DNA of 64,000 nt. It comes from Acetobacter indonesiensis (GTDB lineage Bacteria > Pseudomonadota > Alphaproteobacteria > Acetobacterales > Acetobacteraceae). Where the stretch lies: the NCBI RefSeq assembly GCF_000963945.1, contig NZ_BAMW01000006.1, forward strand, positions 124,001 to 188,000, written 5' to 3'. Below the pieces are notes generated by a model, which ran no database searches, was not told the DNA's origin, and saw only the letters and a list, made by a program, of their open reading frames with translations. Every line of letters starts with the position of its first letter. The stretch's first letter is position 1. Positions 1-48,379 of this stretch are shown here, piece after piece. The position numbers were made by a program, and so were the translations under genes.

Positions 1-1235
1 TGCAAACGGTCAGAAGCATTATTGGAGCCGAGTTTGACTTCCTGAGAAAAGAAGTTTGTCTGATTGTTACGATACATATTGCCATACGCACCAACGGTGT
101 TGGTCTGGTTCGACAGTTCATGTTCGTCAATCATTTCATAGGCGCTGACGCTGGTCAGTCTGGCCCATGAAAAATCTTTTGTGAAACGCACATTCGCGCC
201 CCAGAACAGGTTGTCTTCCCGTGGTTTCTGGTTTTTGGCGTTAAGACCAATCGCATCGGCAAACTGTTGGCTTAGGCCCCAGTTGGTTGCCATGATATCG
301 TTTCTGTTGTTCGCAATACCGTAGCTGTTTGTCATGATCGCACCGGCAGGTGCGTCAGATTGATCTGTTGTCCAGTGGCCACCAATATCCAGCCGGGTTG
401 TGTCGTCAATCTGCCAACGCAGTTTGCCGCGTAAAGCGCCCAGATCCGCGTTGCCAAAACCTTTGCCCTGACTGTTGTGCTGAAAACCCCCGCCTGTCAG
501 GGATTGCCCGGAAAGACGGTAGGATAAGGATTTGCCAATGGGGCCGGAAATATAGCCTTCAACACGGTTGCGGCCATAGCTGGCAATATCTTCCGTCAGC
601 CCGGCATGGAATGTGCGTGTGGGGTCGGCTGTGCGGAAGTTGATTTCGCCACCTGTGGTCACCTGTCCATGGCTCAACCCGGACTGGCCGGGGCTGACAG
701 TGACACTATCCATGTCAAACAGGATGCCGGTTGTCATGATGCTGACAGGCATTGCAACGTCATCAACATACGGCATGACGGAGGGGAGGTTGTTTTGCGT
801 CAGGTCGGCCATGCCCACCCCACGCAGCGCGAAGTTTAACCCGGCGGAGCCATTGGATGGCTGCACCGTCAGGCTGGGTGCAACACGGATCAGATCTGTC
901 ATCTGCCGCACATTTTTTTCCTGAAGATCCTTACCGGTCAGGCGCGTTGCGGAATCTGGCATATGTTGCTGGTTGCGAAAGGGATCACGCCGGATGCTAA
1001 CCTGCACATCCTCCCCCTGAGAGGATGTCAGTGGCCCGGTGCTGCGCCGCGAACGGCTTGTTTTTTTCACACCTTGAACAGCAGCCTTTTTAGAATGCGA
1101 AGGCGCATGATGTGATGCAGAGGAGTGCGCCGGGGCCGTTGCGGCCAGACTGTCAAACACAGGTGCGCTGATCAGGCAGGAACAGGATAGGACAAGTTTC
1201 AGGCATAGCTTGGGCGTTGGCGCACGAAAGGACAT
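1..1235 (-). CDS. TonB-dependent receptor, N-terminal part (cut by window edge)
   Basis: Outer-membrane, TonB-energised receptor for an unknown ligand. The minus-strand frame is open from an ATG at 1235 to the window edge (411 complete codons), so the C-terminal barrel is missing. The N-terminus has a signal-peptide-like stretch, then a Ser/Ala/His/Lys-rich linker, then a plug domain starting near residue 85 with the typical LTGKDLQEKNV segment and an LRGVGMADLTQNN motif. A GAGG sequence lies just upstream of the ATG. It is a paralogue of the receptor at 14976-17300, which has LRGAGFNDFTQNN and the same DDVA motif at the equivalent place. TonB-receptor identity is secure; the substrate is not known. 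Confidence 0.88.
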   Translation of the reverse strand, partial: MSFRAPTPKLCLKLVLSCSCLISAPVFDSLAATAPAHSSASHHAPSHSKKAAVQGVKKTSRSRRSTGPLTSSQGEDVQVSIRRDPFRNQQHMPDSATRLTGKDLQEKNVRQMTDLIRVAPSLTVQPSNGSAGLNFALRGVGMADLTQNNLPSVMPYVDDVAMPVSIMTTGILFDMDSVTVSPGQSGLSHGQVTTGGEINFRTADPTRTFHAGLTEDIASYGRNRVEGYISGPIGKSLSYRLSGQSLTGGGFQHNSQGKGFGNADLGALRGKLRWQIDDTTRLDIGGHWTTDQSDAPAGAIMTNSYGIANNRNDIMATNWGLSQQFADAIGLNAKNQKPREDNLFWGANVRFTKDFSWARLTSVSAYEMIDEHELSNQTNTVGAYGNMYRNNQTNFFSQEVKLGSNNASDRL

Positions 1236-1299
1236 CGTAAACCTCGGGGAGAAAGGGAAGGTATGGAGGAGAGTGTGGGTTAAACGGCGGGGCTACATG

Positions 1300-2640
1300 T
1301 TATTCACCCGCGGTTTCGTCTTGGATTGGTCTAGTCAGGATTTCAGGTGCGTTATTTGTGCGGGCAGTTTTTGTTGTGACGTTTGAAAGCGTTGCGAGAA
1401 CCTGTGTCTGGTTGATGTCTTTTTCCCATGTTGCCACCACGACTGCCGCGGCACAGTTTCCGACAATATTGCCAAAAGCGCGGGCAATGCCGACAAACCA
1501 GTCAACAGAAACAAGAAGCACAAGCCCCACAGTCGGAATATCGGGAACAAGAGACAGGGTTGCCGCAAGAATAACAATGGCGACCCCGGGTACCCCATGT
1601 GCCCCCTTAGACGTCAGAAGAGCCATGCCGATAACCAGCAGCAGTTGCGGCCAGCTTAGGCTGACATGCGCGACCTGCGCTAAAAACACGATGGACAGAC
1701 CAAGATAAATGGAAAGCGCATCCAGATTGAAGGAGTAACCTGCCGGGATCACAATCCCCACGGTTTTGCGCCCGACCCCCATATCAATCAGTTTTTGCAT
1801 AATCTGGGGAAGCACGGCGTCGGATGATGTTGTGGCCAGCACAATGCTCATTTCTTCACGCAGATAAAGCAGCAGCGTGATGATGTTGATTTTGCAGTAC
1901 CAGCGTAACAGGCCACCTAGAATAACAAAAACAAACAGAATGACAGCCAGAAAATAGACGAACAGGAAGCGCAGCAGCGGTTCAATAGACCCAATGCCGT
2001 AATGGCTAATGGTGTAGCTGATGCCGCCAAATACGCCCAACGGTGCAAACCGTACAATAATGCCCATGACACGGAAAAATACAGTGCTTAATCCATCTAT
2101 CAGGCGAGAAACCGGGGCAGCCTGCTCGCCAGCCAGCAGCAAGGCACACCCGAAAATAAGGGCAAAGACCAGAACCTGCATTACGTCATTATGGGCAAAC
2201 GCATCCATTGGGTTTTTGGGGATGAGGTGCAGGATAAAGGCCTCTACCCCTCCAGTTTTGAGGGAGGAGGCTTGTTGGTGAAAAACCTGTGTTGCCTGCG
2301 CACTTTCCTGCGGGGGCAGGGCAAGGCCGGTGCCGGGATGCACTATAACGGCAGCCAGCAACCCGAACCCCAGCGCAACCGATGTCATGATTTCAAAATA
2401 CAGAAGTGCTTTGGCCCCCAGCCGCCCCACTGTGCGGATGTTGCCTGCCCCCTGCATGCCCTGCACAATGACGCAAAACACCAAAGGTGCGACAATCATG
2501 GAAATCAGTTTAAGAAAAATATCGCTTAGAATCTTGAAGTGTTCAGACGCGTGAGGCACGAAAACGCCTGCCATAATGCCCAGAAGCGTCATGAGCACAA
2601 TCTGCATGAACAGAGAACGTGGTGACAGGACAGATCTCAT
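1300..2640 (-). CDS. Dicarboxylate/cation symporter, DctA-like (DAACS family)
   Basis: Inner-membrane secondary transporter of the dicarboxylate/amino acid:cation symporter family, 446 residues, the usual length. Diagnostic segments are a serine-rich re-entrant loop ending TTSSDAVLP, the GYSFNLDALSIY stretch (GYSFNLDGTAIY in classic DctA), LLTSKGAHGVPG, and DWFVGIARAFGNIVGN near the end. The changes at these substrate-site motifs (ALS for GTA, HGVPG for AGVTG) mean a C4-dicarboxylate substrate is only a family-level guess. It is divergent from the GntR/FCD regulator at 2986, with palindromic operator-like sites between them, so the regulator is a good candidate to control this transporter. 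No strong ribosome binding site is visible before the ATG at 2640; ATG codons slightly inside are possible. Confidence 0.85.
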   Translation of the reverse strand: MRSVLSPRSLFMQIVLMTLLGIMAGVFVPHASEHFKILSDIFLKLISMIVAPLVFCVIVQGMQGAGNIRTVGRLGAKALLYFEIMTSVALGFGLLAAVIVHPGTGLALPPQESAQATQVFHQQASSLKTGGVEAFILHLIPKNPMDAFAHNDVMQVLVFALIFGCALLLAGEQAAPVSRLIDGLSTVFFRVMGIIVRFAPLGVFGGISYTISHYGIGSIEPLLRFLFVYFLAVILFVFVILGGLLRWYCKINIITLLLYLREEMSIVLATTSSDAVLPQIMQKLIDMGVGRKTVGIVIPAGYSFNLDALSIYLGLSIVFLAQVAHVSLSWPQLLLVIGMALLTSKGAHGVPGVAIVILAATLSLVPDIPTVGLVLLVSVDWFVGIARAFGNIVGNCAAAVVVATWEKDINQTQVLATLSNVTTKTARTNNAPEILTRPIQDETAGE

Positions 2641-34067: not shown

Positions 34068-34380
34068 GAAGCAAAAGCCTCCGTTAAAGAAAGACAGGTG
34101 CCTTTCATATAGGGGGCGGGCGCGTATCATGCCAGAGACAGGTTCAGGGACTTTATACGGGACAGACTGATGCTCGGCAGCTGAAGGAGATGCCAGAATT
34201 TCCTGCCTAATAAAAACCCAAATGTTTCAGCAAAGAGAGCCTTGGTATTTAAGATCTAAAAAACCGTTAATTCATCAAGATATTCTTAGGATTTCGATAA
34301 CCTTAAATTAAGATTTTGAAATTACATAACAAGGAGGATTCGAGACACTTTTAATATCTTGATGAAGGTTGACCAGCATC

Positions 34381-36075
34381 ATGGCCCTTAATCTCCTCTA
34401 TAATCAGGTAATTGATTATTCTGTCGATCAGCCCCTCAATCTGAATGTTGGCGGCAATATCCTCATAACGCGGGATGCGAATACGCCAACAGGTGATCCG
34501 GTTGTGGTCAACCTAAGTCAGTTGGCGGATGTGCAGGCCTTAAGCACGATTGTGGTCGAAAATGGTGCCACTGCTATCATGAGCGGTGGCCTGGCCTCCA
34601 TCAAGGCGCTTTCAGGGGTCACGCTCAACGGCGGTATTTTGCAGTTGAGTACATCAATTGCCAATATCAATGCTTTGAATAGCATAACAGTTGGCCCCGA
34701 TGGCGGTATGATTAAGGTGAATGCCACAGGGATTAGTGCTGGTGTCTTGTCTTTTCCTGTGTCTTTTATTGATTCTAGTGGTAAGTCAACCACAACTGTT
34801 CCGAAAAATTTTGCGGTCGACTTCCCACAGTCAACGACAATTTATGGGTATTATGACTTACTTACCAATCAGACAACCATTGGGTTAGATCTGAATATTT
34901 TAGGGCTCATTAATGTTGGTCTTGGCCCAAGCATAGTCATTAGTGGAAACCCCTTTGGTCTGGGGTTGGGAGTAAAAGAATGGACCAGCACCTCTAATCC
35001 TGATGGTACAGGAGGCATCCTGATCTGCTTCCTGAAAAACTCCATGATCCGTACGGAAAACGGGGACGTGCCTGTTCAGGATTTGCGCATTGGCGATACA
35101 ATTATTGCTTACGAAAACGGGAAAGAAATCAGCCGTTCTGTCACATGGGCAGGTAAGGCCACGGCAACGGTTAATCCCGCTCTGCCGGATGATGAGGCAG
35201 GCTATCCTGTCCGTATTCTCAAGGATGCAATTGCAGACGGCGTACCCTTTAAGGATATGCTGATTACGCCCGAGCATTGCCTGTTCTTTGATGGGAAGTT
35301 TATTCCTGCCCGTATGCTGGTAAATGGGCGGACAATTATTTATGATCGTACGATTACAACATACGATTATTATCATGTTGAGACAGAGCAGCATTCCATC
35401 ATTATGGCCGACGGTATGATGACTGAAAGCTATCTTGACACTGGTAACAGGGCCTCCTTTCAACAGGAGGGCACAGTGGTAAGAGTCAGCCCGCCCTCAA
35501 TATCTGTGCGCACATGGGCCGAAGATGCTGCCGCACCGCTTTCTGTAGCGCGTGAGGATGTAGAACCTTTGTATTGTGCGTTAGATGCACGCGCAGACAA
35601 GACATGCTCGGATGCAACCAAACCGCTTGTGACAGATGATGCTGACATTCATCTTGTTACCGCAAACGGCACGATTATACGTAAAGCGCGTCAACATAAA
35701 AACAAACTCTTTTTCATGCTGCCGAGTGGTATTGACCGCGTGTGGCTGACCTCGCGTGCCGGACGTCTTTTTGATAGCATCGGCCCCTTTGTTGATGACC
35801 GGCGCACATTAGGTGTGCTGGTAGGAGACATTACCCTGCAACAGGGAAGTGGGTCTGTGCAGAAAATTCATCCAGCCACACACGAAGCTACGGGATTATC
35901 TGGCTGGCATAATGTCGAAGCAGGCGCGACAATGCGCTGGACCACCGGGCACGCTGAAATACCGCTAGGTGACCGTCTGGCAGGTAAAATGGCTTTGCTT
36001 TGCGTGGAAGTACTTGCGGGCGGACCATATCTGATCAAGCCTGTGACCCAACAGGACATGGCGGTGAGCGCCTGA
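34381..36075 (+). CDS. Hint-domain protein with N-terminal repeat-like region
   Basis: 564 residues from the ATG at 34381. Residues about 10-200 are Asn/Gly/Val-rich with repeated short beta elements, and lack a standard signal peptide. Residues about 216-365 form a Hint_2-type domain starting at C216 (CFLKNSMIRTENGDVPVQDLRIGD) and containing the TPEH motif with H299, the residues used by Hedgehog-type proteins to start self-cleavage. The last 200 residues hold a second conserved region with GWHNVEAGATMRWTTG. A GGAGG sequence at 34332 is too far upstream to serve this start. Domain family is clear; processing activity and location are inferred. A much larger Hint protein lies at 43883. Confidence 0.8.
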   Translation: MALNLLYNQVIDYSVDQPLNLNVGGNILITRDANTPTGDPVVVNLSQLADVQALSTIVVENGATAIMSGGLASIKALSGVTLNGGILQLSTSIANINALNSITVGPDGGMIKVNATGISAGVLSFPVSFIDSSGKSTTTVPKNFAVDFPQSTTIYGYYDLLTNQTTIGLDLNILGLINVGLGPSIVISGNPFGLGLGVKEWTSTSNPDGTGGILICFLKNSMIRTENGDVPVQDLRIGDTIIAYENGKEISRSVTWAGKATATVNPALPDDEAGYPVRILKDAIADGVPFKDMLITPEHCLFFDGKFIPARMLVNGRTIIYDRTITTYDYYHVETEQHSIIMADGMMTESYLDTGNRASFQQEGTVVRVSPPSISVRTWAEDAAAPLSVAREDVEPLYCALDARADKTCSDATKPLVTDDADIHLVTANGTIIRKARQHKNKLFFMLPSGIDRVWLTSRAGRLFDSIGPFVDDRRTLGVLVGDITLQQGSGSVQKIHPATHEATGLSGWHNVEAGATMRWTTGHAEIPLGDRLAGKMALLCVEVLAGGPYLIKPVTQQDMAVSA

Positions 36076-43882: not shown

Positions 43883-46800
43883 ATGCCTTTAAATTACACT
43901 GTTTCGTCCGGCCAGCATGTTAGCAATGTTAGACTTTCGGACGGAGATCATCTGATTATTGAAAATGGTGCTTCAGCCGAAGGCACAATTTTTGGTTCGG
44001 GTAGCATTGAGAATATACTTGCAGGAGGAAGTGCGTCATCAGAACTCTTTGGTGTTTCTGGTGGTGTGGTTGCTTCTGGTACTCAATTAAATGCAATTCT
44101 TACTCCCACCAACGAGATAGATGCGACGGGCAGTTCAGGGATTGCAACCAACAATACTGTTGTTGGAGGGGTTATTGTAGCAGTTAGTGGAGGCACCACT
44201 CTTAGTAATACGATAAATGGCAGCGGCCGTGGCCTTGTTCTGTCGGGGTCTTTGGCTTCTGGAAATAATATCACATTTGGTGGAGGCGAAGTTGTTTCAG
44301 CTGGTGGTTCTGCCAGGGGCGAAACAGTTGGTGGCGGAGGGGAGCTTGATGCTCGCGGCTCAGGGGCAGTTTTAAGCCAGATTCTTGTGAGCGGGGGCCT
44401 TGTTTACCTTCAAAATGAAGCGCATGCGATTTCAAATACTGTGCTTGGCGAAGGTAGAGTTTTTGTCGCTGATGGAAGTGTCGTGTCGGCAACGACTGTT
44501 AGTCAGGGCGGCCAGATGCACGCCTCAGCCAATGGCTTGCTTATTTCAAACACAGCGACCGATAGCGCTATTATTACTGCAAATAGCGGGGGCACTCTTT
44601 CTGGCAATACTGCCGGACCGGGTGGTCAATTACAGGTTGTTTCAGGCGGCTTTGCATCGGATAATTTTATAAGCGGCAGCTTGGCAATAGAAGTGGTTTT
44701 CTCTGGCGGATCTGCTGTGGGGGCTACGGTTGTTTCAACCGGGCAGCTTCAGGTTTCTGCCGGTGGGTATGCTGAAAACGATACAATTATTGGCTCAAAT
44801 ACGCTGGAATTTGCCTATAGCGGTGGAACTGTCGCCCACGAAACATTGCTTTCGGGCGCACAGTTGCAAGTCTTTGCCAATGCAAAGGCTTCAGGGGATA
44901 TTTTACGTGATTCTGGGACATCTGAAATTGTTTCGAGCGGCGGTGTTGCCGTCGGCGAGACTATTTACGCTGGCGCAGAGATTGATGCGCGTGGAAGTGG
45001 TGCTTTTGTAAGTGGCACAATAGCATCTGGCGGTATTCTCTGGGCAGGGAGTGGGGGTGTTCTTTCAGGGAATATTTTGTATTCTGGAGCAAGTTTACAG
45101 ATTGAGTCAGGATCATTTTCTTACGGGAATACACTGAATAGTGGCTCTTATGAAAATTTAACTGTTTCCTCGATTGCGCGTGGTGAAACTGTTTTGGATG
45201 GTGCCAATGTTAAGGCGCTGGACTCAGGAAGTCGTATAGAAGGAGCCACGGTTTCGAAAGGTGGCATTCTTGCTGCGAAAAACGGCGGTGTTGCAGATGG
45301 TAATTCTTTATCCGGTGGCCAGTTGGAGATTGGGCCAGGTGGATTAGCGAGTAACAATATTTTTGTTGGCAGTGATGTCGATTACTCTAGCAGCCAGCAG
45401 GGTGAATGGGTGCAAAGTGGTGGCACTGTCAGTCACGAGACTTTTCTAAGCAGTGCAGCGCTACGTGTTGACGTTGGGGGAAGCGCGTCTGATATTCAGA
45501 TCAATGGTGCAGAGATTAACCTTGTTAGCGGTGGCACTGTTGATACTGCCCATCTGAGCGGTGATTCCCTAATTATTGTGGGACAGAATGCAGTTCTTAA
45601 AAATACGGAAATTGCATCAGGTACAGAACTAATCATTCAATCGCCAGCAAGCTTCCTCAACGATACGATTGATATCGGGGCAAAGGTTGGTGTCGGGGTG
45701 GACGTTGGTGTTACCACAATGTTTGCCGGAAATAAGCTCATTATTCAGGGCAGTAACGGTTCCCAGACACTCACAATCAACGGAAATGGAGACGAATTTT
45801 TCCTGCAACCTGTAGCAGGTGAGGATGGTATCTTTACCCTTGAAGAAGGGACGCCCTGTTATTGTCGTGGTACGCTGATTGCGACAGCGCGTGGTGACAT
45901 CCCGGTAGAAGCACTACGTATTGGGGATCAGGTTGCAACCGCTACCAACGGTTATCGGCCCGTTCGCTGGATTGGTCGGCGCAGTTATTCCGGGCAGTTT
46001 GCAAACGGAAACCGGGATGTTCTGCCAGTTGTTTTCCGTAGGGGATCACTCGGAAACGGTTTGCCGAGACAGGACCTTTCGGTTTCCCCGTTACATGCCA
46101 TGTATCTGGATGGTGTGTTGATACCCGCTGTCTTGCTGGTAAACGGAACCAGCATTGTGCAGGCGGAAAAAATGGACGAGGTGTCTTATTTCCATATCGA
46201 GTTGGAAAGTCATGACATCGTTTTTGCCAATGGTGCGTATTCAGAAACATTTGTTGATGATGATTCTCGCGGTATGTTCCATAATGCGGATGAATATGCA
46301 GCACTTTATCCAAATGCAGTGAAACAACCTGCTGTTTATTGTGCACCTCGTGTAGAAGAAGGTGCACAACTTGAGAATATCCGCAAAACGCTTGCTGGTT
46401 TGTATGCTGCTGCGCCCATAAAAGATGCGCCTTTGGAAGGCTTTTTGGATACTGTTACGCGTAGTCGTTTGTCTGGTTGGGCCAGAAACCCCAAAGACAG
46501 TGCGCCGGTGCGTTTGCAAATTCTGGATTGTGGCCGCGTAATTGGTGAGGTTGTGGCCAATAAACCCCGGCCAGATGTTGGTACGGAATGTGGGTTCGTG
46601 TTCGATGTGCCTGCTGGTCTTTCGCCCTTGGAACGTCATGTTCTGGAAGTTCGGCGCGTAGAAGACCACACTTCTGTAGGTAACGTGCCGTGGATGCTTG
46701 ACCAGTTGCCACAGGCACCTGTGCAAGCCGTTGTCGTATCAGGTGCGGGCAAGCCACTAGACGGTTGTCTGGATGAAGTGACACGGGACCGTGTGGCTGG

Positions 46801-48379
46801 CTGGGCTTGGAATCCTAAAACACCAGATGAACCCGTGGCGTTGCAAATTCTGGATAATGGTCAGCTTATTGCATCTGTCCTTGCCAACGGCTTGCGCCCG
46901 GATGTGAAAGCAACCGGACGGAATGTACGGTGTGGATTTGATATTCTGCTTCCCGGAGGCCTTTCTCCGTTCACGCGCCACGTTATTGAAGTGCGTGGTG
47001 AATCAGATGGCACATTGCTGGCAGCTCCGACTGTGATTGAGCCTGTTACGGTTTTTGATGATACGTTTGAACAGGCGGTAAGTCGTGCTGTTGCCGCGGC
47101 AACAGATCAGAAAGGGCAAGAACATATCTTGTCTTTCTTGATGGGGCAGGTTGAAAAACTCTCTCAGGCGCATGCACAAAAGGAAAGCGGTAAAGCTGAC
47201 CGTGAACTGGCAGCGTCACGTCGTCGGCGTGGCCTGAAAGTGGAACCTTCTAAAGTAACAAAACGGGTGCTGGTGGTGGATGCGTTGCGTCCTCGGACAG
47301 ACCATGATGCTGGGTCCTGTGCTATTGTTTCTCATATGAAGGCATTTCAGAAGCTGGGATATGATGTCAGCTTTGTTGCTGCGGACCAGATGGCGGATAC
47401 TGGCCGGGGACCGGTCCTTTCTGGCGTTACCGTTATGGCCGCACCATTCTACGTGTCGTTGGAAGATCTGTTGCGGAAGCAGGCAGATAGCTTTGATGTG
47501 GTGTACCTGCACAGGCAGGATATTGCGTCGCGTTATATCGCGCTGGTACGCCGCTACCAGCGGCGGGCCCGTGTGGTGTATAGTGTTGCAGATCTGCATT
47601 TTGTCCGACTGGCGCGCCAGGCTCAGGTTTTAAGTGAACCGGCGTTACTGGCTAAAGCTCAGTCAGTGCAGCAGGCCGAATGTGCAGCAGCACGACAGGC
47701 AGATGCGGTTATTACCCATTCAATTGATGAAGCGGCACTTCTGCGGCGGGATGCTGCGGGTGTGAAGGTGCATGTTGTGCCATGGGCGGTTGAGCCCCGT
47801 AAACGCGTTCCGGGCTTTGCCAAGCGGCATGGGGTTGTGTTTGTAGGTAATTATACGCACACGCCCAATGTGGATGCAGCCCGCTGGTTGGTAGAAGAAA
47901 TCATGCCATTAGTGTGGGCGCAGGATAGCAGCATTGGCTGCACGCTTGTGGGTGCCGGGATGACGGAGGAGGTAGCGTCTCTGGCACGCAAAGGTGTGAC
48001 TGTCCGTGGCCACGTAGCTGATCTGACAAGTGTGTTTGATACCGCACGGTTAAGTGTTGCGCCGCTTCGGTTTGGTGCAGGGATAAAAGGCAAGGTTCTT
48101 GACTCGTTCGCTGCGGCTTTACCATGTGTCATGACCGAGGTTGCAGCAGAGGGCCTTGGGCTGAACAATGATCTATCCCAGCTCGTAGGTCGAAATGCGC
48201 AGGAACTGGCTGACAGCATCGTGCGTATCCATAACAATGCGGAAAACCAGAAACATTTGGCTCGGGCGGCATGGACTTACGTGCGTGAGCACAATGCATC
48301 CAAAGTTGTCGAGAGCGCATTGCAGTCAGCACTTGAGCAGAAAATGAAGGTGTATCAGGTGCAGAAGCGGGCTGGATAA
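43883..48379 (+). CDS. AIDA-repeat, Hint and GT4 glycosyltransferase fusion protein
   Basis: A single open frame of 1498 residues. Residues about 10-640: AIDA-like tandem beta repeats (many SGG, TVxxGG, and the near-duplicate ExDARGSGA at 154 and 366). Residues about 656-800: Hint_2-type domain with cysteines C659 and C661 (CYCRGTLIATARGDIPVEALRIGDQ), the SPLH motif with H738, and LVNGTSI. Residues 851-945 and 958-1055: two copies of a module (GWAxNPK, VxLQILDxG, RPDV, CGF, GLSPxxRHVxEVR). Residues about 1128-1490: GT4/group-1 glycosyltransferase with VFVGNYTHTPN and FGAGIKGKVLDSF. No signal peptide or autotransporter barrel is visible. AIDA repeats elsewhere are glycosylated, so the fusion suggests self-modification; that is inference. 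Confidence 0.8.
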   Translation: MPLNYTVSSGQHVSNVRLSDGDHLIIENGASAEGTIFGSGSIENILAGGSASSELFGVSGGVVASGTQLNAILTPTNEIDATGSSGIATNNTVVGGVIVAVSGGTTLSNTINGSGRGLVLSGSLASGNNITFGGGEVVSAGGSARGETVGGGGELDARGSGAVLSQILVSGGLVYLQNEAHAISNTVLGEGRVFVADGSVVSATTVSQGGQMHASANGLLISNTATDSAIITANSGGTLSGNTAGPGGQLQVVSGGFASDNFISGSLAIEVVFSGGSAVGATVVSTGQLQVSAGGYAENDTIIGSNTLEFAYSGGTVAHETLLSGAQLQVFANAKASGDILRDSGTSEIVSSGGVAVGETIYAGAEIDARGSGAFVSGTIASGGILWAGSGGVLSGNILYSGASLQIESGSFSYGNTLNSGSYENLTVSSIARGETVLDGANVKALDSGSRIEGATVSKGGILAAKNGGVADGNSLSGGQLEIGPGGLASNNIFVGSDVDYSSSQQGEWVQSGGTVSHETFLSSAALRVDVGGSASDIQINGAEINLVSGGTVDTAHLSGDSLIIVGQNAVLKNTEIASGTELIIQSPASFLNDTIDIGAKVGVGVDVGVTTMFAGNKLIIQGSNGSQTLTINGNGDEFFLQPVAGEDGIFTLEEGTPCYCRGTLIATARGDIPVEALRIGDQVATATNGYRPVRWIGRRSYSGQFANGNRDVLPVVFRRGSLGNGLPRQDLSVSPLHAMYLDGVLIPAVLLVNGTSIVQAEKMDEVSYFHIELESHDIVFANGAYSETFVDDDSRGMFHNADEYAALYPNAVKQPAVYCAPRVEEGAQLENIRKTLAGLYAAAPIKDAPLEGFLDTVTRSRLSGWARNPKDSAPVRLQILDCGRVIGEVVANKPRPDVGTECGFVFDVPAGLSPLERHVLEVRRVEDHTSVGNVPWMLDQLPQAPVQAVVVSGAGKPLDGCLDEVTRDRVAGWAWNPKTPDEPVALQILDNGQLIASVLANGLRPDVKATGRNVRCGFDILLPGGLSPFTRHVIEVRGESDGTLLAAPTVIEPVTVFDDTFEQAVSRAVAAATDQKGQEHILSFLMGQVEKLSQAHAQKESGKADRELAASRRRRGLKVEPSKVTKRVLVVDALRPRTDHDAGSCAIVSHMKAFQKLGYDVSFVAADQMADTGRGPVLSGVTVMAAPFYVSLEDLLRKQADSFDVVYLHRQDIASRYIALVRRYQRRARVVYSVADLHFVRLARQAQVLSEPALLAKAQSVQQAECAAARQADAVITHSIDEAALLRRDAAGVKVHVVPWAVEPRKRVPGFAKRHGVVFVGNYTHTPNVDAARWLVEEIMPLVWAQDSSIGCTLVGAGMTEEVASLARKGVTVRGHVADLTSVFDTARLSVAPLRFGAGIKGKVLDSFAAALPCVMTEVAAEGLGLNNDLSQLVGRNAQELADSIVRIHNNAENQKHLARAAWTYVREHNASKVVESALQSALEQKMKVYQVQKRAG

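Follow-up and report, generated by a model that had tools for sequence, protein, structure and literature searches.

A fused AIDA-repeat, Hint and glycosyltransferase protein of Acetobacter indonesiensis belongs to a barrel-less family widespread in the Acetobacteraceae

How might a repeat adhesin of the O-heptosylated kind be matured when its repeats are followed, in one and the same chain, by a Hint domain and a glycosyltransferase (GT) in place of an autotransporter barrel? The question is raised by P0001, a gene on the forward strand of the window analysed here, which is a stretch of 64,000 nucleotides from Acetobacter indonesiensis (contig NZ_BAMW01000006.1, positions 124,001 to 188,000). 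A previous sequence-only reading of this window had described a continuous frame of 1498 codons at 43883-48379, combining AIDA-like repeats, a Hint_2 domain, two modules of about 95 residues and a family 4 glycosyltransferase (GT4) domain, and had proposed a self-glycosylating adhesin that releases its own repeat domain. P0001 is indeed a single open frame of this length, all the domain assignments are supported and the domain fusion is confirmed; the interpretation as a whole is only partly supported. P0001 is a fused member of an AIDA-type, barrel-less, Hint-carrying family that is widespread in the Acetobacteraceae and has been little described.

One doubt was whether two genes had been joined artificially by a frameshift or an assembly error, a suspicion to which the existence of split, two-gene versions lends some colour. 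The same genome contains a full-length paralogue (a frame of 1484 amino acids with 48% identity) and a third Hint-GT copy divided into two adjacent frames. The presence of full-length and split paralogues in the same genome excludes chance or misassembly, and since the same fusion is found in this paralogue and in many other genomes the artefact is refuted and has virtually no probability left. Home-made profiles of the Hint, module and GT parts were used to look for the same domain order elsewhere. Among 42 large loci, selected for matching and including that of P0001, the order Hint - module - GT was found fused in 27 and as two adjacent genes in 14, with Hint only in the remaining one. In the split loci the upstream gene encodes Hint, joined by a module in 12 of the 14, and the downstream gene module and GT; in the 11 of 14 whose mechanically read frames stay clear of each other, 10 to 40 bases lie between them. 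In 41 Hint-GT loci the module and GT part is either joined to a Hint-adhesin or encoded immediately after it. Of the module and GT matches listed whose alignment lacks Hint, 38 of 38 have a Hint match upstream, on the same strand and at no more than 622 bp, in some cases within a single frame; 18 rows with GT only were left out of the count.

In total, 43 different fused cores, that of P0001 among them, came from the genus, from its family and from Gluconobacter vitians, whose fused copy is 59% identical across the C-terminal part. The sequence-only reading knew of no described case with all parts in one protein. No paper on an AIDA-Hint-GT protein appeared among the matches listed in the open-licence literature. 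The architecture is not a lone one. P0001 was matched, in some cases weakly, in 44 of 49 genus genomes at E 0.001 or better, and residues 600-1498 had some match at E 1e-20 in 165 of 200 family genomes. At the level of the class, where two candidates were scored per genome, the Hint-to-GT profile reached E 1e-30 in 24 of 385 genomes, its complete span being confined to the home family and pieces occurring elsewhere. When neighbouring genes were compared (503 mechanically chosen open reading frames, taken from 41 loci and from 30 kb of the window), no constant neighbour of the fused gene emerged; beyond the family itself there were only groups common to six loci or fewer. Outside the home family, module and GT also occur without Hint. 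One contig there (G489:C97, locus L121) has a Hint and module frame and a module and GT frame about 10 kb apart on opposite strands. Two IMG/VR contigs filed as viral (L142 and L143) contain a Hint domain 62-65% identical to the family of P0001.

The repeats of P0001 are matched by the AIDA-I model of NCBIfam (E 5.6e-25). Their best solved relatives include Ag43 structures and TibA 4q1q (E 1.5e-12 by sequence), a TibC-glycosylated TibA fragment that is also the top Foldseek match (E 3e-7) of an AlphaFold model of residues 1-664. This model, which predicts a succession of short strands, was built from a single sequence and has a mean predicted local distance difference test (pLDDT) score of only 52. 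Residues 11-600 contain 14% Ser and 18% Gly, and there is no Cys in residues 1-657. The assignment to the O-heptosylated kind is backed by both matches to 4q1q and by the relatives as well. Specifically, the N-terminal repeats exceed the cut-off of TIGR04415 ('O_hepto_targRPT') in 8 of 10 Hint-GT relatives, fused or split (E down to 4e-127); the ten were hand-picked and not random, and of the other two N-termini one is slightly below the cut-off and one has a weak AIDA-I match alone.

Of the three residues pointed out earlier in the Hint_2 domain (Pfam, residues 658-793, E 3.8e-46), two are conserved in the family. C659 is a cysteine and H738 a histidine in 42 of the 43 fused cores, P0001 counted, the sole exception (L104) being a partial, divergent Hint match without either of them. 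The alternative cysteine, C661, varies across the cores and was rejected as nucleophile, which leaves C659 as the likely one. The Cys at position 1 and the T/S-x-x-H block of Hint/Hog domains are both present (C659 and H738), and this block is mostly V-S-P-x-H in the Hint-GT class to which P0001 belongs (class A) and T-P-x-H or similar in the aligned proteins of a second class (class B, see below). The Hint profile has its nearest solved match in 2lwy, a bacterial intein-like domain (E 3e-4), and no intein-type C-terminal splice junction was seen in P0001. Judging from these residues, Hint cleavage directly before C659 is likely. A model of residues 650-1498 was too poor in its Hint part (10-residue pLDDT means 24-54) to be of use here. 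A mutation in an unnamed Hint protein is mentioned in PMC11999647.

The module that follows is present in six copies in the A. indonesiensis genome, all of them within the three Hint-GT loci. No Pfam family was found for it in a scan of 28 members, and the sequences of the PDB gave two weak matches only (E 0.046). The model of residues 650-1498, built from five sequences and poor overall (mean pLDDT 52, with 10-residue means of 44-87 in the modules), shows strands fitting two beta-sandwiches, one long helix and one alpha/beta part, and Foldseek lists for it GT4 enzymes and Fn3/Ig pairs. An Fn3/Ig-like fold of the modules can be suggested with low confidence.

In the GT domain, Pfam Glyco_trans_1_4 matches residues 1317-1452 (E 4.6e-20) and Glyco_transf_4 residues 1152-1305, the latter below the Pfam cut-off, while the nearest NCBIfam model, the PEP-CTERM/XrtA-linked TIGR03087 (E 8.8e-30), gives 104 bits against a cut-off of 317. 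With regard to a GT-B fold, Foldseek lists GT4 enzymes, the model being the same poor one. P0001 has the donor-site lysine and acidic residues of the C-terminal lobe (K1404, D1407 and E1423), and of the 36 cores whose GT part is complete 33 retain K1404 and all 36 E1423; this count omits 7 of the 43 cores, six with a weak or partial GT and one (L089) that ends before the motif. Four of the six weak C-termini were scanned and had no Pfam match. Nine fused genes with the donor-site motif absent or altered (L080, L081, L039, L082, L042, L043, L037, L060 and L061) are apparent pseudo-glycosyltransferases.

Which enzyme would put the first sugar on the repeats? A. indonesiensis has two genes of TIGR04414, the model of the Aah/TibC O-heptosyltransferases (G000:C152:144429 and G000:C173:53866). 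This model is above its cut-off in 34 of the 49 genus genomes (in G003, G004 and G041 as fragments), and specifically in 29 of 29 genomes with the Hint-GT class, defined by a best match to P0001 below 1e-90, and in 5 of 20 others (Fisher p 1e-8). Physical linkage is stronger evidence than co-occurrence for the pairing. In three other genomes (L220, L221 and L229) the heptosyltransferase gene directly precedes an AIDA-Hint gene read in the same direction, with gaps of 3, 16 and 5 bp, and scanning the AIDA-Hint protein of L220 revealed no barrel. Among the 40 class A loci with flanks it adjoins the fused gene in three, divergently in L052 and L054 and directly downstream in L079, and a further scan confirmed what these neighbours are. 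An AIDA-Hint gene is about 10 kb from the heptosyltransferase in L218, L222 and L223, and a Hint gene about 5 kb off in two stretches; 7 of the 15 heptosyltransferase stretches, which were partly chosen for nearness to Hint genes, have no Hint gene within them. On plasmids, a Hint protein adjoins the heptosyltransferase in all four Acetobacteraceae records (Gluconobacter oxydans H24, G. sphaericus, Acetobacter oryzoeni and Neokomagataea tanensis) among 20 listed of 218 matching; the neighbour in G. oxydans H24, annotated as 'outer membrane protein', contains an AIDA-Hint match. In the classical pairs aah-aidA and tibC-tibA the heptosyltransferase gene is found beside its adhesin gene, and the pairs described here resemble them, with Hint standing in place of the barrel. 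The serines of TibA and AIDA-I are heptosylated by TibC, according to PMC4358343.

The presence of this enzyme family in the genome, together with the adjoining AIDA-Hint genes in relatives, indicates that the initiating enzyme is probably a separate one. By analogy with TibA in E. coli, the first sugar would probably be added in trans, and the proposal that the protein glycosylates itself alone is not supported. That proposal, in which the fused GT4 starts the sugar on its own repeats and Hint then frees them, draws on the counted cases, where module and GT share a chain with an AIDA-Hint protein or are encoded right behind it, and on the Foldseek matches of the low-confidence model, which include, amid many GT4 enzymes, SdgB and the Gtf3 and GtfC of serine-rich-repeat glycoproteins. 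By contrast, solved proteins related in sequence to the GT profile bear the names of enzymes that act on lipids, lipid-linked sugars or small molecules and not on proteins, and a dedicated O-heptosyltransferase family is at hand in the genome and encoded beside some relatives. We find an entirely self-contained glycosylation rather unlikely; the built-in GT4 is more likely to extend a glycan than to start it.

The best explanation of these observations, to which we would assign a probability of roughly 0.4, is heptosylation in trans, extension in cis by the GT4 domain and then a Hint cut before C659. The repeats would fold in the cytosol as a TibA-like beta-helix, and a separate TibC/Aah-type O-heptosyltransferase would add heptose to their serines. 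The GT4 domain, held near the repeats by the modules and Hint, would then add further sugar on its own chain, and an N-to-S acyl shift at C659 would finally free the repeat domain from the Hint-module-GT part, a cut that would keep the GT enzyme out of the surface product. We infer these four steps, their order and the export of P0001; trans heptosylation rests on the linkage in relatives, cis extension on fusion or adjacency and the cut on the conserved residues.

A number of points weigh against this explanation. Glycosylation and cleavage of P0001 are both predictions. P0001, though its repeats are of AIDA type by the matches given above, is weak against the repeat models themselves (14.7 bits with Pfam AIDA, cut-off 27, and 16 bits with TIGR04415, cut-off 30). 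The residue preceding C659 is a proline, which is unfavourable at this position for intein-type N-terminal cleavage. P0001 is on contig C176 and both heptosyltransferase genes are on other contigs; the fetched stretch contains no heptosyltransferase in 37 of the 40 class A loci, and on the leuS tree its co-occurrence with the Hint-GT class comes down to three independent pairs on supported branches, for which the sign test is not significant. At least four class B proteins of the genome have AIDA repeats and no such GT in the fetched stretch. Finally, of the 42 cores that can be judged, 9 lack the donor-site motif or have it altered (the six with a weak or partial GT and three with an altered K1404), so that the class as a whole cannot depend on GT activity.

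This last figure suits another explanation, in which the GT part would modify a surface polysaccharide distinct from the adhesin, or serve as a binding scaffold without catalysis, and would be fused to the adhesin for co-expression or placing only. The weak C-termini without a Pfam match and the module and GT parts without Hint outside the family point the same way. The near-constant K1404 and invariant E1423 of the cores with a full GT part argue for the opposite, and among the genus matches listed module and GT are never away from a Hint partner, which leaves a separate target or scaffold improbable in our view.

Not all Hint proteins of these bacteria carry a GT. Up to 24 Hint_2 matches are found in a single genome, and that of A. 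indonesiensis has 16, three of them in Hint-GT loci and 13 elsewhere. Twelve of the latter were read (class B), and they have, in place of module and GT, a tail with the motif DRRx(L/M/F)G. One is encoded in the window itself (Table 1); this protein has no GT and no AIDA match, and its DRRxLGV-type tail recurs on eleven other class B proteins. TIGR04415 repeats above the cut-off are present in 4 of 11 class B proteins scanned with NCBIfam (2 of the 13 were left out). On contig G000:C173, a class B AIDA-Hint gene opens an apparent operon, all on the same strand, with an AMP-binding ligase, a single-module type I polyketide synthase (PKS) of 2115 amino acids, an acyl-AMP ligase and a heptosyltransferase; the gene junctions are short or overlapping, and the order in another genome (G019, L222) looks alike by size, position and sequence start. 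According to PMC8776678, beta-group type I PKS clusters of Acetobacteraceae contain O-heptosyltransferase genes, hint-domain proteins are located beside the PKS of Asaia, no thioesterase had been found for Acetobacteraceae type I PKSs and none of the cluster metabolites had been purified.

An AIDA-Hint gene within a PKS-heptosyltransferase operon raises the idea of a Hedgehog-like attachment of a lipid or glycan at the C-terminus. A nucleophile offered by the neighbouring part, behind or beside Hint, and not water, would attack the Hint thioester, and the adhesin C-terminus would be joined to an adduct, a glycan or glycolipid in class A and a polyketide lipid in class B, as a surface anchor replacing the barrel. 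The Hedgehog Hint performs only the first acyl shift and is followed by a region that recognises the sterol or adduct (PMC7664689, PMC2362128); the Hint domains described here likewise precede something, either one or more modules with GT (fused or in the next gene) or the DRRxLGV tail (12 class B proteins). The missing thioesterase would fit too. The PKS operon suggests a lipid adduct and is the strongest pointer to one, though it belongs to class B and not to P0001. The adduct itself is putative, and the modules match no Pfam family. We regard this transfer as unlikely. A general version, in which the Acetobacteraceae would run a Hedgehog-like processing where heptosylation is followed by the joining of the adhesin C-terminus, by Hint, to a covalent anchor chosen by the partner and replacing the barrel, appears quite improbable.

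The route by which P0001 would be exported was examined as well. The absence of a visible signal peptide or barrel, already remarked on, was upheld: Pfam and NCBIfam gave no autotransporter barrel family at E 1 or better, and reading the sequence by eye disclosed no hydrophobic N-terminus or Sec signal peptide. There is no Pfam match to RTX repeats, and the C-terminus of the protein is the end of the GT domain. Type I secretion was considered as a route. At least three Hint_2 genes are found in 32 of 34 genus genomes with a type I HlyD and in 2 of 15 without (Fisher p 4e-8), but this strong raw association collapses on the leuS tree (48 of the 49 genomes), where five changes against one do not support it. 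G004 and G037 have no type I HlyD and yet 8 Hint_2 matches each. In the family, a type I system is present in 190 of 200 genomes and hence uninformative, and some genomes without one still match residues 600-1498. As a route for P0001, type I secretion is suggestive only.

Two arrangements around type I exporters were noted. In A. indonesiensis (L144:3360-12059, contig G000:C152) a type I ATP-binding cassette (ABC) protein and HlyD are followed by a Sel1-repeat protein and then by a GT2/GT4 glycosyltransferase, an order kept in four other genomes, one of them without a Sel1 match in its gene list. In L145:6564-12785, L146 and L150 a Hint_2 gene is divergent from HlyD and an ABC exporter with a C39 peptidase domain (scanned in L145), and a small open reading frame resembling a double-glycine leader lies between the Hint_2 gene and the exporter genes.

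Table 1. Features of P0001 and related genes. Positions are those of the window except for the operon, which is given by locus and contig.
Feature	Position	Strand	Remarks
P0001, whole gene	43883..48379	+	1498-amino-acid AIDA repeat - Hint_2 - two modules - GT4 protein
AIDA/TibA-type beta-helix repeats, residues ~10-640	43910..45802	+	AIDA-I, TibA 4q1q, Foldseek, composition
Hint_2 domain, 658-793, with conserved extension to ~837 (with C820)	45854..46393	+	Pfam, conservation
C659, predicted Hint nucleophile	45857..45859	+	Cut expected directly before; C in 42/43 cores
H738, histidine of the S-P-x-H block	46094..46096	+	H in 42/43 cores
Module copy 1, residues 853-943	46439..46711	+	Predicted beta-sandwich (low confidence)
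Module copy 2, residues 961-1056	46763..47050	+	Predicted beta-sandwich (low confidence)
GT4-type domain, residues 1130-1484	47270..48334	+	Pfam, TIGR03087 under cut-off, family alignment, Foldseek on poor model
RxGAGxKGK and EG motifs	within GT4-type domain, 1130-1484	+	Both present in P0001
Second Hint_2 protein, 568 amino acids, class B	34369..36075	+	Hint, then DRRxLGV tail; separate gene, relative of P0001
Apparent PKS operon	L218:3825-17817 (G000:C173:53824-67816)		Class B AIDA-Hint first gene

A way to place P0001 is to set each of its parts beside the known system that it resembles. It shares the repeat type with AIDA-I, TibA and Ag43, and the TibC/Aah (BAHT) heptosyltransferase is found in the genome and beside some relatives; it differs in that no barrel is matched, no Sec signal is visible and Hint and GT4 stand behind the repeats. 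With Hedgehog (Hog) and bacterial intein-like Hint domains it has in common the N-terminal Cys block and the S/T-P-x-H block, whereas here an adhesin is in front, a GT domain or DRRxLGV tail behind, and the cleavage is a predicted one. The C-terminal donor-site motif is that of GT4 enzymes, for which the structural matches come from a poor model; unlike the nearest of them, those of TIGR03087, the GT of P0001 is under the cut-off of the model and is fused behind Hint via two unclassified modules. The Gtf enzymes of serine-rich-repeat adhesins are also of GT4 type and dedicated to one exported repeat adhesin, but are separate proteins, and their adhesin is exported via accessory Sec. The likeness lies in a GT4 enzyme tied to a repeat adhesin, with Gtf3 and GtfC among the Foldseek matches, and the difference in the fusion of the GT in P0001. 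The beta-group type I PKS clusters likewise include O-heptosyltransferase genes and, in Asaia, have hint-domain proteins beside the PKS; they are treated as metabolite clusters in PMC8776678, and the sections considered do not mention AIDA repeats or a Hint protein as glycosylation substrate.

The plasmid records matched here give such proteins no annotation beyond 'Hint domain-containing protein' or 'outer membrane protein'. Heptosylated AIDA-type adhesins are known as autotransporters. The AIDA-Hint family combines repeats of that kind and that enzyme family with the lack of a barrel; a self-processing Hint domain follows the repeats, and one class has a GT in the chain as well. With it, the maturation and surface attachment of such adhesins can be put to the test, and so can the existence of a bacterial Hedgehog-type C-terminal modification.

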